Source: Phytohabitans rumicis
Lineage (GTDB): Bacteria; Actinomycetota; Actinomycetes; Mycobacteriales; Micromonosporaceae
Direction: 5' to 3'
Assembly (NCBI RefSeq): GCF_011764445.1
Contig: NZ_BLPG01000001.1
Coordinates: 6,775,001-6,839,000 of the forward strand
Length of the DNA: 64,000 nt
In this document: positions 48,664 to 55,669 of the stretch, piece by piece
How positions within the stretch are numbered: the stretch's first letter is position 1
How the letters are laid out: each line of letters opens with the position of its first letter
Position numbers and translations under genes: made by a program
Notes under the pieces: model-generated
Database searches by the model: none
What the model was told of the DNA's origin: nothing
Seen by the model: the letters and a program-made list of their open reading frames with translations, nothing else

Positions 48664-49170
48664 CTACGCAGACGCGCCGGCAACACGCCCGACAAACTCC
48701 CTGATCACCGTGGAGAGGCGGCGGAGGGGGCCGCGGGGGTGGGTGCGGGAGGAGAGTTCGTCCGCGGCTAGGGCGGACAACGGCGTGGACCGGGCGAAGG
48801 CTAGGCCGTCGGCGTAGGAGCCTTGGGTGGGGCGGGTGGCGGCCCAGGAGGCGAAGGCGGTCGGCCATTCCGGGCCGAAGGACGCGGCCAGGAGGGGCCA
48901 GTGGCGGGCCACGTCGGCGGCGCGTTTGCGCAGGAGGGCGCGGCGGGCGGCCTCGACGGGTACCGGGTCGAAGCCGTCCGGCACCGGTGCGCCGGCGACG
49001 AGGGCCGCCACGAGCGCGGCCTGCCGGTCGGCGAGCGTGCGCGGTGTCTCCTCGGTCGCACGCGCGGCGGCGCCCGTAGGCGGCGTCATTCCATCGGCGG
49101 CCGCGTCCGTTTGGGGTTTCGGTTCGTGGCGCCGCTGGAAAAACGCCGCCGCGCCGCCGCGCGTACTCAT
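48664..49170 (-). CDS. Small partner protein of the DUF692 enzyme
   Basis: The 168-residue product has a disordered basic start (MSTRGGAAAFFQRRHEP) and a helical core: ALRKRAADVARHWPLLAASFG-like region, EWPTAFASWAATRPTQGSYADGLAFA and VIREFVGRV. It resembles the small proteins found next to DUF692 enzymes (HvfC/DUF2063-like or the SCO6045-like group), which are thought to present the substrate. Its ATG overlaps the DUF692 stop by ATGA. The assignment rests mostly on context. Confidence 0.68.
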   Translation of the reverse strand: MSTRGGAAAFFQRRHEPKPQTDAAADGMTPPTGAAARATEETPRTLADRQAALVAALVAGAPVPDGFDPVPVEAARRALLRKRAADVARHWPLLAASFGPEWPTAFASWAATRPTQGSYADGLAFARSTPLSALAADELSSRTHPRGPLRRLSTVIREFVGRVAGASA

Positions 49171-49988
49171 GTGATGACCGGGTAGCCGGAGGCGGCGGCG
49201 ATCGCGTCCAGTTCGGCGCGCAGGGTGGCGGCCGGCGGGTAGTGGCCGTCGCGTTCCAGCATCAGGGCCGGCGGCCGGCGCCGGGCGCACAGCTCCCCGA
49301 CCAGGTCGAGCACCTCCCGCGGCACCGCGTCGGTGTGCGTGTCGTGGTAGATCCCGTCGTGTTCGGCGCCGCCGGCCACGTGGACGTACGCCACCCGCTC
49401 CAGCGGCAGCCGGCCGAGCAGGTCGGTCGGCTCGGTGCCCCGGTTGCGGGCGTTGGCGTACACGTTGGCGATGTCGAGAAGCAGCAGCGCCCCGGTGCGG
49501 TCGAGGATCTCGGTCAGGAACGCGCCCTCGTCCAGCTCGTCGTCCGGCCAGTCGAAGATCGCGGCGATCGGTTCCAGCGCGATCGGCACCGGCAGCTCCG
49601 CCTGCGTGCGGACAACGTTGGCGACGACCGCGTCGACCGCCTCCCGCGTCCGCGGCAGCGGCAGCAGGTGCCCGGCCTCCAGCCCGCCCGCGCGTACGAA
49701 CGCGATGTGCTCGCTCACCAGCGGGGCCCCGAGCCGTTCGGCCACCGCGGCCAGGTGCGCGACCCGCGCGGGGTCGACGGGCTCCGCGCCGCCGAGCGAC
49801 AGCTTCACGCCATGGGGTACGACGGCAGCACCCTTGCCCCGGAGGGCGGCGAGGGGAGCCGGCAGCGGCCCGGAAGACGGCACCGACTCCGCGACGACCT
49901 CGGTGAACGCCAGCCCGGGCAGGTCGGCCACGAACCCGGAGATCTCCGGCCGCCAGCCGATGCCCACGCCGAACGACGGGGTGGTCAT
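49167..49988 (-). CDS. DUF692 (MbnB/TglH-like) multinuclear iron oxygenase
   Basis: The 273-residue TIM-barrel product has the family metal-site phrases: GVGIGWRPEI, APLVSEHIAFV, LEPIAAIFDW, LLLDIANVYANARN, VHVAGG, YHDTHTDAVP and LERDGHYP. Characterised members (MbnB, TglH, ChrH) use two or three irons and O2 to rebuild Cys residues in peptides. ATG 49988 shares ATGA with the preceding membrane-protein gene; ATG 49997 is an alternative. It probably modifies the Gly/Cys tail encoded just upstream (inference). Confidence 0.88.
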   Translation of the reverse strand: MTTPSFGVGIGWRPEISGFVADLPGLAFTEVVAESVPSSGPLPAPLAALRGKGAAVVPHGVKLSLGGAEPVDPARVAHLAAVAERLGAPLVSEHIAFVRAGGLEAGHLLPLPRTREAVDAVVANVVRTQAELPVPIALEPIAAIFDWPDDELDEGAFLTEILDRTGALLLLDIANVYANARNRGTEPTDLLGRLPLERVAYVHVAGGAEHDGIYHDTHTDAVPREVLDLVGELCARRRPPALMLERDGHYPPAATLRAELDAIAAASGYPVIT

Positions 49989-50881
49989 CCCCCGCATCCT
50001 CCGCCGCCGCAGCCGCCTCCGCCGCCGTCGGACGAGCCACCGCTGTCCCCGCCGGAGGAGCTGCCGCCGTAGGAGCCGCCGGTGCCACCCGCCGACGCGT
50101 ACGCCCGCTGGATCTCGGCCTCGGCGGCGAATGCCGGGTCGAGCGCCCACAGCGACGCGGCGCCGAAGAGCCCGACGCCGAGCGCCACGCTCGCCGCGCC
50201 GTACGTCGCGTAGGCCGGCGCGCTCGACGGCGACAGGTACTCGTGCCGGCGGCGCATGTCGTTGAGGGCTGTGCGGGCGGCCATGGTGTGCCGGGGTACC
50301 CGGAAGAAGGTGGTCACCGCGATCAGCGCCCAGCCGATGAGCAGCAGGATGAGGAAGCCCACCGGCTTGTCGTTCGCCAGGCCGGCCATGACCCGCACGA
50401 TGCCGAGCCCGAGCAGGGCGAGCATCAGCAGCGGGACCACCCGGGCGGCCCGGCGGGTCGCCGCGGTCGGCACCAGGCCGTCGGACCGGAGGCCCTCGCG
50501 CAGCTCGGTCAGCGCCGACTCCACCCACGGCTCGTGGGCCAGGTCGCGGGCGCGGATCCGCTTGCCGGCCGCGTTGTAGACCGCCTGGTCCAGCGGCGTG
50601 ACGCCGGCTGGCATCGGGCCGGCGGGGGACAGGGCGCCGCCCTTGGCCACGTCGATCGCCCCGGCGGCGCGCAGCCCGGCCAGCGACGAGTACAGGGCGA
50701 GCTTTTCGCCCCCGTTGAGGTAGGCCACCTGCTGCGGGCCGAGCCGGTCGACCGGGTAGCCCCGACGCCCGGTGAAGAGGATGGCGCGGTGGATGATCGC
50801 GGCGATCACGAGTGCTGCGGCGGCGCCGGCAAAGAGCGCCAGGAAGGTGGGTCCGGGGATCCCCCAGGTGTCACCGATCAT
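49985..50881 (-). CDS. TIGR04222-type membrane protein with Gly/Cys tail
   Basis: The 298-residue product has an N-terminal helix (TFLALFAGAAAALVIAAIIHRAI) and a soluble TIGR04222-like segment: RLGPQQVAYLNGGEKLALYSSLAGLRAAGAI. Two central helices follow (VVPLLMLALLGLGIVRVMAG, VGFLILLLIGWALIAVTTFF) and a fourth near ATYGAASVALGVGLFGAA. The last 35 residues are almost only Gly/Ser and end GGGGGCGGGGCGG. These two Cys are the only ones, a likely target for the coupled DUF692 enzyme. ATG 50881 is chosen; a longer frame exists. Confidence 0.78.
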   Translation of the reverse strand: MIGDTWGIPGPTFLALFAGAAAALVIAAIIHRAILFTGRRGYPVDRLGPQQVAYLNGGEKLALYSSLAGLRAAGAIDVAKGGALSPAGPMPAGVTPLDQAVYNAAGKRIRARDLAHEPWVESALTELREGLRSDGLVPTAATRRAARVVPLLMLALLGLGIVRVMAGLANDKPVGFLILLLIGWALIAVTTFFRVPRHTMAARTALNDMRRRHEYLSPSSAPAYATYGAASVALGVGLFGAASLWALDPAFAAEAEIQRAYASAGGTGGSYGGSSSGGDSGGSSDGGGGGCGGGGCGG

Positions 50882-50903: not shown

Positions 50904-51476
50904 TCACGCCTTGCGTACCGCCTCTTCGACCAGATCGAGCACCCGGCCGAGGTCACCCGGCGGGCGGCCCATGGCCAGGTGCAACACCAGGCCGTCGTAC
51001 GCCAGCTCTAGAAACTGGGTCAGCACATCCAGGGGTACGTCGTCGCGCAGCACCCCGGCGTCCCGCTGGCGGCGCAGGCGTTCGTGGGTGGCGTCGGTGA
51101 TGGCCTGTGAGCGCTCCGCCCAGCGCTTGGCGAACGCGGGGTCGGTGCGCAGCCGGCGGGACACCTCGAGCTGGCTGCCCAGCCAGCCGGCGGTCTCCGT
51201 GGAGTCGGCGCGGGCGAGCAGGTCGCGCATGACCTGGACGAGGCCGTTACGGGCGACGGTCTCCACCATCGCGGCGGCGTCGTCCTCGGCGACCGCGAGG
51301 AAGAGCGAGTCTTTGTCCCGGAAATGGTGGAAAATCGCCCCCCGGGACAACCCGGTCTCTTCCTCCAGACGGCGCACCGTGGCACCCTCGTACCCGTGCC
51401 GGGCGAAACAGGCACGGGCGGCGGCGAGGATCTCCTGGCGGCGCGCGTCGAGCTGGTCCTGACTCACCCTGGGCAC
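50904..51476 (-). CDS. acnR: TetR-family regulator, AcnR-like
   Basis: The 190-residue product has HTH GYEGATVRRLEEETGLSRGAIFHHFRDKDSLFLA and the opening RRQEILAAARACFARHG, close in style to the aconitase repressor AcnR of corynebacteria. An 18-base site upstream of this gene recurs upstream of acnA 7 kb away, which supports the assignment. AcnR responds to citrate/iron in Corynebacterium. Here aconitase lies four genes away rather than adjacent. Confidence 0.75.
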   Translation of the reverse strand: MPRVSQDQLDARRQEILAAARACFARHGYEGATVRRLEEETGLSRGAIFHHFRDKDSLFLAVAEDDAAAMVETVARNGLVQVMRDLLARADSTETAGWLGSQLEVSRRLRTDPAFAKRWAERSQAITDATHERLRRQRDAGVLRDDVPLDVLTQFLELAYDGLVLHLAMGRPPGDLGRVLDLVEEAVRKA

Positions 51477-52599: not shown

Positions 52600-55004
52600 C
52601 TACGAGGCCGGTCCGTCGACCGGGGCACGCCAGGCCGCATCCGGCGTCGCCGCCAGCTCCGGGGTGGCCGGCAGCGCCAGGCTGATCTTGGCGTGCCCGT
52701 GATGCGCCGCGACGGCTGCCCGGTGGTACGCCTCGATCTCCCGTACCAGCTCGTCGCTCTCGTAGATGCTGCCGTCGACCAGCGGCCCTGGCCGCCGCTC
52801 CAGGATGGCGGCGACGTCTTCGCCGTTGAGCGTCTTGTGAATCTCCAGCGCGTGCGCCAGGGTCAGCACCTCGCGGCGGTTCTCCTTGAGTAGCGCAGCG
52901 GTCTGCTCCAGAAGGGTGGCCAGGTTGTCCTCGATGCGGTCGGCGAGTGCACGGCGCGCGGTGTCCTCGGGGTTTTCCCGCTGTCCCTGACCACGCCCGC
53001 CGGGCGTGCCGATGCCGATCTGGACCGACAGGGAGTACGAGGAGACCGTGGAACCCATGCCCCAGAAGCCCTCCATCTGCGTCGCGACAGCGGTGGCCGA
53101 CTCCAAGTCGCCGGACACGCCGGAGGAGCTGTCGCCCTCGAAGAACATCTTCTCGCCGGCGAGCGAGGCCAGTGACACGTAGATGTCCGACTCATACTCG
53201 GTGCGCCAGCGGGTGAACTGGTCCTCCGGCTTGATGCTCGCCACCATGCCGAGATACTCGGCGCCCTTCTCGATGGTGGCCACATCGATCTCCATGTGGT
53301 GCCGGGTCCGGTACGCGGCGACCGCGTGGCACGCCTCGTGCACCGCGACCGCGTGCCGCTCCCGCTCGATGTACTCCACGTCTTCTGGTGGGCCGAGCTG
53401 CTTGAGGCGCTTGGCGTCCATCACGTCGCGCCACTCGATCACCTCGCGGTCGTCCCGGATCGCCGTGATCAGGGCCTCGTTGACCAGGTCCTTGATGGTC
53501 GCGCCGGTGGCGTACGGCGTGATGACGGCGAGCTTCTCGATCTCGTCGTCGGTGAGTTCGTGCCGCACCTTGTCCAGGTAGCCCTGGTAGGTGCGGACGC
53601 GGCCGGCCTTGCTGGGGTAGCCCACCTTGTAGATCCGGTCGATGCGGCCCGGCCGGAGCAGCGCCTCGTCGAGCGCCTCGGGCAGGTTGCTCGCCATCAC
53701 GACCAGAATCCGGTACTTCGGTGGCGGCTTGGGGCGCATGCCGAGCAGGCGGCGCACGTACCGGTTGACGAACCCGCGCGGCTTCTTGAGGCCGGACAGC
53801 TCGCTGAGCAGGGCCTGCAGCGTGCCCATGTCGCCGCCGCCACCACCCATCATGTTGCCGCCCATCACGAAGCGGCTGCGGCGGGTGCGGGGCTGGTCCT
53901 CGGCCGGGAGCGTCGAGGCCATCGCGTTGCGGGTCAGCAGCCACTGCGACTGCTCGGACAGGTACGAGAAGCCGTGGCAGCCGTCGTGCTGGAAGGGGGC
54001 CGGCGTCGTGCCACGGGGAAGCCCGGCCCGCCCTGGGCGAGCGCGCCGCGCCGCCCGAGCGAGTCGGCCTCGTCGAAGAAGACGATCACGCCGCCGTACC
54101 GCAGCGCGAGCTTGCGCAGCTTGCGGAACAGCGACTTGACCTTCAGGATGCCGACGCCCATGAACATGTTGGCGAACGCGCCGGGGTCGACGAAGACGTA
54201 CGGCCGTCCTGTCTCGCCGGCCATCGCCTCGGCCATCAGCGTCTTTCCGGTACCGGGCGGGCCCCACAGCAGGATGCCGCCGGGGACGTAGCCGCCCTTG
54301 GTCTCGATCGCCTCGGGCTTTTCCAGGAAGAGGATGTTCTCCTTGACCCGGTCCACGACGTGGTCCTGGCCCCAGACGTCGGTGAAGCGGGTCTTGATGT
54401 CGTCCGGGTAGTACGTCTCGACGCCGCCCTTGGAGAGGAACCAGAAGATCGCGACGAACTGCAGCACGACGAAGAGCAGGATGAAGACGAGCTGCAGGAT
54501 GAACGGCAGCAGGTTCCAGATGATCGAGGGCATCTCGAACATGGCGAGCACCGGCGAGGTGTCCAGCACCGCGCCGGCCACGAACGCCAGGATCACGATC
54601 CAGAACACCCATTTGATCGCCCGAGCGAACCGGAACCGGGTCCAGTCGCTGAACCGCCGGTGGGTCAGCCGCTCGAAGCCGCCGAACACCCGGTTTGTCC
54701 AGAAGAGGTGGTAGCCGGACCACCGTTCGCTGATCAGGAAGTGGAGCTGCCGGAGCACCTCCGCACCCATGATCACGAAGATCCAGAAGGACTCGCGCGC
54801 TTCCAGCCGGGCCGCGTCCACGAACGGCAGGAGCGGGTTGTCGGCCATCGAGGCCCACACCAGGATCAGCCACAACAGCGAGAGCAGCAGGATGAACTTG
54901 ATCCGATCCCAGAGCGGCAGCTTGGGCCGGGTGGGCCGGTGGTCGTCGCGTGGGCCCTCGTCGGGTGGGCGCAAGCCCTCCACGTGGATCGCCGGCTCTG
55001 TCAT
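52600..55004 (-). CDS. FtsH-like membrane AAA metalloprotease, frameshifted
   Basis: The full product is about 801 residues. The N-terminal 190 residues hold about four helices (IKFILLLSLLWLILVW, FWIFVIMGAEVL, WVFWIVILAFVAGA, LQLVFILLFVVLQFVAIFWF). The AAA domain has Walker A GPPGTGKT and Walker B VIVFFDEAD. The M41-type zinc site is HEACHAVAAYRT, with a later LASLAGEKMFFEGD. Near 54015-54018 the frame breaks; one added base in GGGG rejoins GPGFP with RGTTPAPFQHDG. Unlike classic FtsH there is no large exported domain between two helices. A lipoprotein gene lies 2 bases upstream. Confidence 0.82.
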
Positions 55005-55006
55005 GA

Positions 55007-55669
55007 TCAGCTCCTCACCGTGAAGGACGTGACGATGCCTTCGAGCTCGTCGGCGCGGTCCGCGTAGCACTTCGCGGTACAGCGGATGAAGAGCATGTAG
55101 AGAAGACTCGCGTCGTCGTTGACCAGGGCCGTCAGGTCAAACGTGTGCAACTGGCCCAGCAGCGAATAGTTGAAGACCACCCGGACGCCGTGCAGGCCCT
55201 TCTCGGGCGTGAGCACCTCGTCGCGCAGCGGTTCGAAGTCGGTCAGCATCGAGCCGGCCTGCGTCGCCGCATCGCGGGCGTCCGTGGTGAACGGCATGAC
55301 CGCGTTGCGTAGGGCGTCGAACGAGACGGAGTCGCTCTGCTCGGGCAGGAGTTGCTCGACCTTGGCCCAGGCCACCGGCTTGGGGGTGGGCAGCATGCCG
55401 TACACGTGGGAGACCGCTGGGTCGTCGGCGTCGGCGTCGTACGCCACTGTCCAGAGCAACTGGTCCCGGATCTTCGCGGTGGCGGAGCTGGGGTCGGCCC
55501 CGACCGCCCACTCGTCCAGCGAGTCCTGGTTGACCTTCTCCCAGGTGCTAGGGATCTTGAAGTACGTCTTGTGGTCGGAGTTCTTGACGTACTCGTACTC
55601 CGGGGCACCGCAGGCCGTCAGTAGGAGCATCGCGGCAACGACGACAGGAATGACCCGTTTGCCCAGCAT
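55007..55669 (-). CDS. Lipoprotein upstream of the FtsH-like gene
   Basis: The 220-residue product has lipobox LLTAC after a helix (VIPVVVAAMLLL). The mature part has YVKNSDHKTYFKIPSTWEKV, a PsbP/Mog1-like opening seen in actinobacterial lipoproteins. It ends 2 bases before the FtsH-like start, so the two are cotranscribed and may cooperate at the membrane. Function is unknown. Confidence 0.8.
   Translation of the reverse strand: MLGKRVIPVVVAAMLLLTACGAPEYEYVKNSDHKTYFKIPSTWEKVNQDSLDEWAVGADPSSATAKIRDQLLWTVAYDADADDPAVSHVYGMLPTPKPVAWAKVEQLLPEQSDSVSFDALRNAVMPFTTDARDAATQAGSMLTDFEPLRDEVLTPEKGLHGVRVVFNYSLLGQLHTFDLTALVNDDASLLYMLFIRCTAKCYADRADELEGIVTSFTVRS

Follow-up and report, generated by a model that had tools for sequence, protein, structure and literature searches.

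A Gly/Ser/Cys-tailed membrane protein as candidate substrate of an MNIO enzyme in a three-gene unit of actinomycetes

We analyzed a 64,000-nucleotide stretch of the Phytohabitans rumicis genome (assembly GCF_011764445.1, contig NZ_BLPG01000001.1, positions 6,775,001 to 6,839,000), called the window here, in which three overlapping genes on the minus strand encode a TIGR04222 membrane protein with a C-terminal Gly/Ser/Cys tail (T, 49985-50881, 298 aa), an enzyme of the MNIO family (M, DUF692 or PF05114, 49167-49988, 273 aa) and a helical partner protein (P, 48664-49170, 168 aa). Taken as a whole, the unit is best explained as a three-gene system for post-translational modification, and this is the reading toward which we lean. 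Comparison of sequences suggests that the tail of T is quite probably the substrate of M. Neither the arrangement nor the idea of the tail as substrate is new, since both have been published in outline for subsets of the TIGR04222 family. What we add is a sharper, testable case together with its exceptions, built on gene order, an invariant cysteine, co-variation of tail and enzyme, unlinked loci, kinship to DUF2207_C and gene fusions.

The three genes overlap through ATGA at both junctions, as first read from the letters, and their reading frames have no internal stops. T scores 156.7 bits against NCBIfam TIGR04222 (curated cut-off 43, E 7.1e-46), and its AlphaFold2 model has a pLDDT (predicted local distance difference test) of 87.9. 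Its end is as originally described, GGGGGCGGGGCGG / GGDSGGSSDGGGGGCGGGGCGG, and C291 and C296 are the only two cysteines of the protein. The assignment of the second gene to DUF692, with a metal site, also holds: M matches Pfam PF05114 with 262.1 bits (cut-off 25, E 6.5e-78), and all nine iron ligands listed for TglH in the cited passages of PMC10880893 align with residues of M (H59, H94, E139, D172, N175, H203, D216, H218 and E245, positions counted by hand). These nine positions are invariant in 15 MNIOs. P is small and helical, as claimed, with six predicted helices and no strands in its model (mean pLDDT 82.5); it has no Pfam or NCBIfam match up to E 1. The window genome contains two TIGR04222 genes and a single MNIO that we could find, and its second T (G000:C2) has three tail cysteines and no adjoining MNIO.

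The order of the genes is conserved. Among 80 named loci collected by MNIO alignment, 70 read T-M-P (67 T-M-P and 3 T-T-M-P) and ten read M-P; nine of these ten begin at a contig end at most 64 bases from the MNIO, and the tenth, from Rhodococcus qingshengii (L322), has M-P without T. M and P overlap by 4 nt in 66 of 71 non-redundant P when starts are assigned by our own rule. Within 150 genomes of the window's family, T occurs in 112 (102 over the cut-off) among the T matches listed, which reach to near E 1e-18, and MNIO in 98. T lies directly upstream of 86 of the 110 MNIO matches and downstream of none; reading 18 loci, which hold 19 of the other 24 matches, added seven with T upstream, for 93 of 110. 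The remaining 17 comprise four at contig ends, two not fetched, two with M-P and no T nearby (G058 and G112), and nine in eight loci where the MNIO lacks P and no T directly adjoins it, one of these (L338) having a weak T-like match at the edge of the stretch. Because P-less MNIO matches have no T directly beside them, it is the P-bearing MNIOs that T accompanies. In this family, 40 of 52 unlinked T were read, and 40 of 86 linked pairs were read by place.

Two observations on individual loci belong here. At L322 (5983-9232), the MNIO and P genes adjoin genes that we take to encode an encapsulin-like shell protein and a DyP-type peroxidase. In Virgisporangium aurantiacum (L270 and L346), the T frame shows no Gly/Cys tail after its fourth helix, with M and P present.

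The tail cysteines are conserved as well. We aligned 57 T (alignment A2: the window plus 56 of 61 non-redundant T, from 70 T loci less L258 and L270, whose tails are unreadable in the T frame); all were found via an adjacent MNIO, and their tails are therefore MNIO-linked by choice of sample. Only L216, G240, G295 and C296 are invariant, C296 being the third residue from the end in 57 of 57. The tails (residues 248-298, 49988-50140, in the window T) contain 2 to 9 cysteines, with Gly or Ser directly after the Cys in 255 of 257 cases and a peak in Cys-Cys spacing at 6. Two glycines separate the last Cys from the end of the protein in 51 of the 57. A preference of this kind, for a small residue after the Cys of EGKCG repeats, is described for the 5-thiooxazole maker FonB (PMC12668002, in the passages cited).

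Across a wider sample, tail cysteines go together with the enzyme. This sample comprised 183 unique T with a stop codon, mainly from T searches plus T seen at MNIO-fetched loci; any MNIO was counted, "in locus" meant within the fetched stretch, and both the weak DUF2207-type matches (L123-L141) and stop-less T were excluded. At least two flanked tail Cys are present in 101 of 114 T whose locus holds an MNIO, in 18 of 47 whose genome has one elsewhere and in 3 of 22 for which no MNIO was found; without one genus, g50, which is discussed below, the counts are 92 of 97, 18 of 40 and 3 of 22. Fisher's test gives p 6.5e-8 for this association, a value inflated by relatedness. The pattern recurs within family f85, where a Cys-tailed T is present in each of the seven genomes whose MNIO has a P; of eight MNIO-less genomes, tails could be read in seven and contain no more than one flanked Cys. 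Three of these tails are Gly-rich with no flanked Cys (G614, G640 and G700), and four are not Gly-rich and have one (G533, G589, G598 and G667). In G649, whose MNIO has no adjoining P, two T have Cys-free ends; in G708, also with an MNIO without adjoining P, no T was found. Some genomes keep the Cys-tailed T apart from M-P: in G526 and G615 the two stand in different places, as they do in G058, which has a second, T-linked MNIO. Because some T keep their Cys away from M-P, operon inheritance alone is insufficient to account for the association. G534 has more than one T, of which the one read is tail-less, and the unlinked T of G112 is cut at a contig end.

Fusions tie P to M. The two are joined in a single open reading frame at many loci of g50 (7 of 7 in one set; separate in G694), in other families (for example, G490, G458, G504, G560, G580, G599 and G650) and, within the window's own family, at three loci (G020, G058 and G112). 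These fusions, which occur in several lineages, independently support P as the partner of M. The best Foldseek match of P in the PDB is MbnC, the partner of MbnB, at a weak E 0.68 and probability 0.51, with nothing at 0.001 or below; its sequence has no PDB match up to E 10. Against the two published partner types, P compares as follows. It does not resemble the PME-type 1 partners, defined by DUF2063 plus a RiPP recognition element (RRE; RiPP, ribosomally synthesized and post-translationally modified peptide): the window P has no DUF2063 match, one of the 50 members of alignment A3 (the window plus 49 of 71 non-redundant P) has one at E 0.033, and an RRE inside P was rejected on its all-helical model. 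P is a candidate PME-type 2 partner, a type whose genes follow the MNIO gene and whose structures are like those of DUF2063 proteins but lack the signature: gene position and likely orthology with the published model agree with this, and on structure there is the weak match to MbnC. According to the cited passages of Antoine et al. (PMC12452194), their model B for PME-type 2 comes from Micromonospora matsumotoense and has 158 aa; the P of our M. matsumotoense locus (L253), which we equated with that model by species and length, not by accession, also has 158 aa and is 56% identical to the window P over 120 aa. As a separate observation, the Gly/Cys tail of T in L362 (G475) continues in the same frame into P-like sequence, which looks as though an intervening MNIO gene had been lost; the same genome has an MNIO match with P at another place (L363).

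Gene order, the invariant Cys, the iron-ligand positions, the co-variation of Cys with MNIO and the M-P fusions together argue for the tail as the substrate of M. We propose that M, with P as its partner, would oxidize the cysteines of the tail while it is still cytosolic, and that the membrane part and cytoplasmic domain of T would replace a signal-peptide leader by providing the anchor and the docking site. The product would most likely be 5-thiooxazoles, as in oxazolin and fontiphorin. HvfB (PMC13419390) and FonB (PMC12668002) make 5-thiooxazole, which binds copper, according to the passages cited; on this analogy, we regard the same product as an evenly balanced proposition for M. Somewhat more tentatively, the analogy would give the tail a role in metal binding, most likely ending outside the membrane as a tethered, copper-type ligand.

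The side of the membrane on which the tail comes to rest depends on the topology of T. Hydropathy and charge suggest a first transmembrane segment at residues 10-34 (50780-50854), with the N-terminus outside, then a domain predicted to be cytoplasmic (residues 35-146, 50444-50779), a second and third segment (residues 147-195, 50297-50443) and a nearly uncharged helix 4 (residues 223-247, 50141-50215). Four helices, as first described, are likely with some uncertainty: the first and third segments are clear and the second is fair, but helix 4 is marginally hydrophobic, and it is this helix that decides the side of the tail. Lys plus Arg average 13.2 in the 35-146 domain and 5.7 in the 196-222 loop of the 57 T, which predicts both to lie inside, with the tail outside if helix 4 spans. 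Probably, then, the tail is outside. The alternative, that helix 4 does not span, leaving T with three transmembrane segments and its modified tail as a metal or redox site in the cytosol, is unlikely but remains the most serious of those we weighed. A cytosolic tail would directly encounter the cytosolic enzyme. Helix 4 is also the weakest segment, with a mean biological-scale sum of +3.7 that is negative in 0 of 57, and the matching stretch of DUF2207 proteins (found in six of seven) is clearly not transmembrane at +9.8 to +11.8. Against this, helix 4 carries almost no charge and lacks amphipathic character, and net charge averages +2.1 before it and -1.6 after it, being higher before than after in 53 of 57. 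Antoine et al. likewise predict a periplasmic tail in the passages cited (PMC12452194).

These DUF2207 proteins are remote relatives of T, as profile comparison indicates. The T domain matches DUF2207_C, the C-terminal part of seven DUF2207-type proteins, with an hhalign probability of 98.2% (E 5.9e-14), and three weak phylum-level T matches that we tested are themselves DUF2207 proteins. T is not a DUF2207 member in the ordinary sense: the window T has no Pfam match, and 30 of the 57 have only remote DUF2207_C matches up to E 1 (best 1.2e-4). Seven DUF2207 (PF09972/PF20990) proteins that we read end in Gly-rich tails, like T; unlike T, their last 15 residues are Cys-free, and T lacks the DUF2207 N-terminal domain. 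A Foldseek search of the PDB with T returned nothing at E 0.001 or below.

Several results weigh against the tail of T as the substrate of M. M scores below every NCBIfam equivalog cut-off (bufferin maturase, BufB, at 181.5 against 310 bits and HvfB at 150.6 against 360); that bufferin maturase is its best NCBIfam model speaks for the proposal. On a T tree (without L207, L215, L216 and L217), contrasts in MNIO presence yield five independent pairs, with a mean of 2.6 concordant, 0 discordant and 2.4 without difference (median p 0.25); the direction of the co-variation is consistent, and the independent events are too few for significance. Tail Cys is absent from 28 of the 47 T from genomes with an MNIO elsewhere. 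Conversely, three Cys-bearing T come from genomes in which no MNIO was found: in L110 a lone Cys stands at the Gly-rich end, L215 continues beyond the Gly stretch, and the plain case, L206, has four tail Cys in a draft genome. Among the neighbors of the unit, no gene for a transporter, a protease or metal handling stood out (6 kb flanks, crude GC-based caller), and the lack of a metal gene counts here too. Finally, the original prediction had named in advance, as its refutation, tails that lose Cys while DUF692 stays. This pattern exists in g50, a genus related to the window's but outside its family, where 11 of 24 MNIO genomes have just a tail-less T beside M-P, and at L236 (G599, another family), where the MNIO adjoins a T without tail Cys; outside g50, 92 of 97 T with an MNIO in their locus have at least two tail Cys. 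A Cys-tailed T stands next to M-P in nine other g50 genomes, with a tail-less T following in four of the nine; in G625 a tail-less T lies on a different contig, and no T was found in G172, G342 and G694. Three of the eleven (G310, G331 and G394) have a second, distant T, each with one Cys, located within or close to a Gly-rich end. The proposal that a tail, not a free peptide, is modified is still the best reading and has comparative support, with g50 and L236 as its exceptions.

These same g50 loci favor an alternative that we consider improbable, in which the real substrate of M is another peptide or a non-Cys residue and T is a companion whose tail Cys are plain thiols. Non-Cys residues are modified by other MNIOs, according to the passages cited (PMC12452194). 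Beside some g50 loci there is also a protein with a recurring Y-x-LPPA end, which is possibly a non-Cys substrate. At L324, L328, L329 and L332, it is a membrane protein near MNIO-P, which we take to be DUF4142-like. Against this alternative stand the invariant terminal Cys of T and the co-variation of Cys with MNIO, and at the named loci T, M and P recur more closely than any other gene family, as judged with a GC-based caller that misses genes. Separately, a small six-Cys protein (63 to 128 aa as called) is present at 6 of 13 loci fetched for an MNIO without Cys-tailed T; it lies several genes away from M, and we did not judge it to be a precursor.

More doubtful still is that signal peptidase I clips the tail at DP-[AG]-F-A and releases it, making T a RiPP precursor whose leader is a membrane protein. 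This enzyme requires small residues at -3 and -1. The DPAFA motif of the window T (residues 248-252, 50126-50140) fits this rule, as do 51 of the 57, right after a hydrophobic helix preceded by a positive loop, and D248, P249, F251 and A252 are conserved in 56, 54, 54 and 55 of 57. However, the FA motif is kept at the equivalent position in tail-less paralogues, and the wider T set has acidic or other non-small -3 residues, or no motif at all. The weakest alternative, a low-complexity tail with incidental Cys, can be dismissed: although the Gly codon GGC and the Cys codon TGC are one base apart and the window is 71% GC, C296 is invariant, the rest of T is Cys-free in 47 of 57, the fraction of Cys among the last 40 residues is 0.103 for 91 Gly/Ser-rich T that adjoin an MNIO versus 0.021 for 6 without, and a DNA pattern of tail plus stop, derived from the window, has a single match there and none in 100 shuffles.

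With the tail as substrate, T-M-P resembles the bufferins and the oxazolin/captophorin precursors (Buf1, Buf2, HvfA and FonA) in its repeated Cys, often followed by a small residue, in its related MNIO and in a product that is probably exported in both. Unlike them, T has its core at the end of a multi-pass protein, no such N-terminal signal peptide and no EGKCG, and P is not a DUF2063/RRE partner. T begins MIGDTWGIPGP and matches only TIGR04222, with neither a Sec signal peptide, as judged without a dedicated prediction, nor a DUF2282, Buf or EGKCG feature. In fusions of MerC and bufferin, according to the passages cited (PMC12452194), a multi-pass membrane protein likewise ends in an MNIO-type core that is predicted to be periplasmic; these fusions have MerC instead of TIGR04222 and are few chimeras without the conserved operon of T-M-P. 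A stretch A-E-I-x-R just before the core is found in 41 of 122 Cys-tailed versus 0 of 61 Cys-poor T, a test made after the alignment was seen. It is conceivable, though we would not expect it, that a DUF2207-type membrane protein has turned into a RiPP precursor with a folded membrane "leader": M-P would dock on the cytoplasmic domain or on A-E-I-x-R and convert the tail Cys to metal-binding heterocycles, and helix 4 would pass the tail across, to stay tethered or be clipped at DP-[AG]-F-A.

Tails of another composition were also seen. T-like proteins from MNIO-less genomes and G649 (L211-L214, L218, L221 and L336) have Gly/Asp tails, such as GGGDSGGGGGDGGGGGGGD, possibly an acidic counterpart of the Cys tail. 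The Asp that replaces Cys in several MNIO-less lineages may reflect one anchor with alternative ligand sets.

Clusters of TIGR04222, MNIO and "PME-type 2" were already described by Antoine et al. (2025, PMC12452194), with tail modification suggested and function left open, and their proteins are of the same three kinds as T, M and P. In the passages cited, TIGR04222 proteins are mostly from Actinomycetota, are often though not always beside MNIO genes, and account for 40% of more than 1,000 Cys-containing proteins without signal peptide encoded ahead of MNIO genes. Their C-termini are Ser/Gly-rich with scattered Cys and assigned to the periplasm, more than a quarter lack C-proximal Cys, only subsets are held likely to be modified, and PME-type 2 partners occur in at least some clusters. 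Two differences stand out. These passages speak of "large periplasmic domain(s)," whereas the main domain of window-type T is predicted to be cytoplasmic, and they do not relate tail Cys to MNIO presence, whereas here tail Cys accompanies P-bearing MNIOs. In the open-access literature we found no experimental study of the TIGR04222 family, and nothing relevant on DUF2207 among the matches listed. If the tail is modified, MNIO chemistry would reach from small peptides to integral membrane proteins, widely conserved in actinomycetes, which would gain a membrane-tethered metal site; the co-variation and the unlinked loci supply concrete genes for testing this.

The surroundings of the unit vary, with TetR, HAD, ABC and mug genes at window-type loci and others elsewhere, presumably PfkA- and ThiI-like among them. 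In the window, a TetR-family gene (50904-51476, minus strand) ends 22 bases upstream of T. Window-type TetR genes are present in 47 of 81 loci (the 80 named loci plus the window) and end at most 220 bases from the T domain in 41 of 46 measured. In those loci the unit may be co-transcribed with the TetR gene, whose product is possibly its regulator. The original statement that no protease lies nearby was nearly right, except that an FtsH-like AAA/M41 gene lies about 1.7 kb upstream. This gene (52600-55070, minus strand) is split over two frames, with the AAA part at 53934-55070 and the AAA end plus peptidase M41 at 52600-54021, the result of either a frameshift or a sequencing error.

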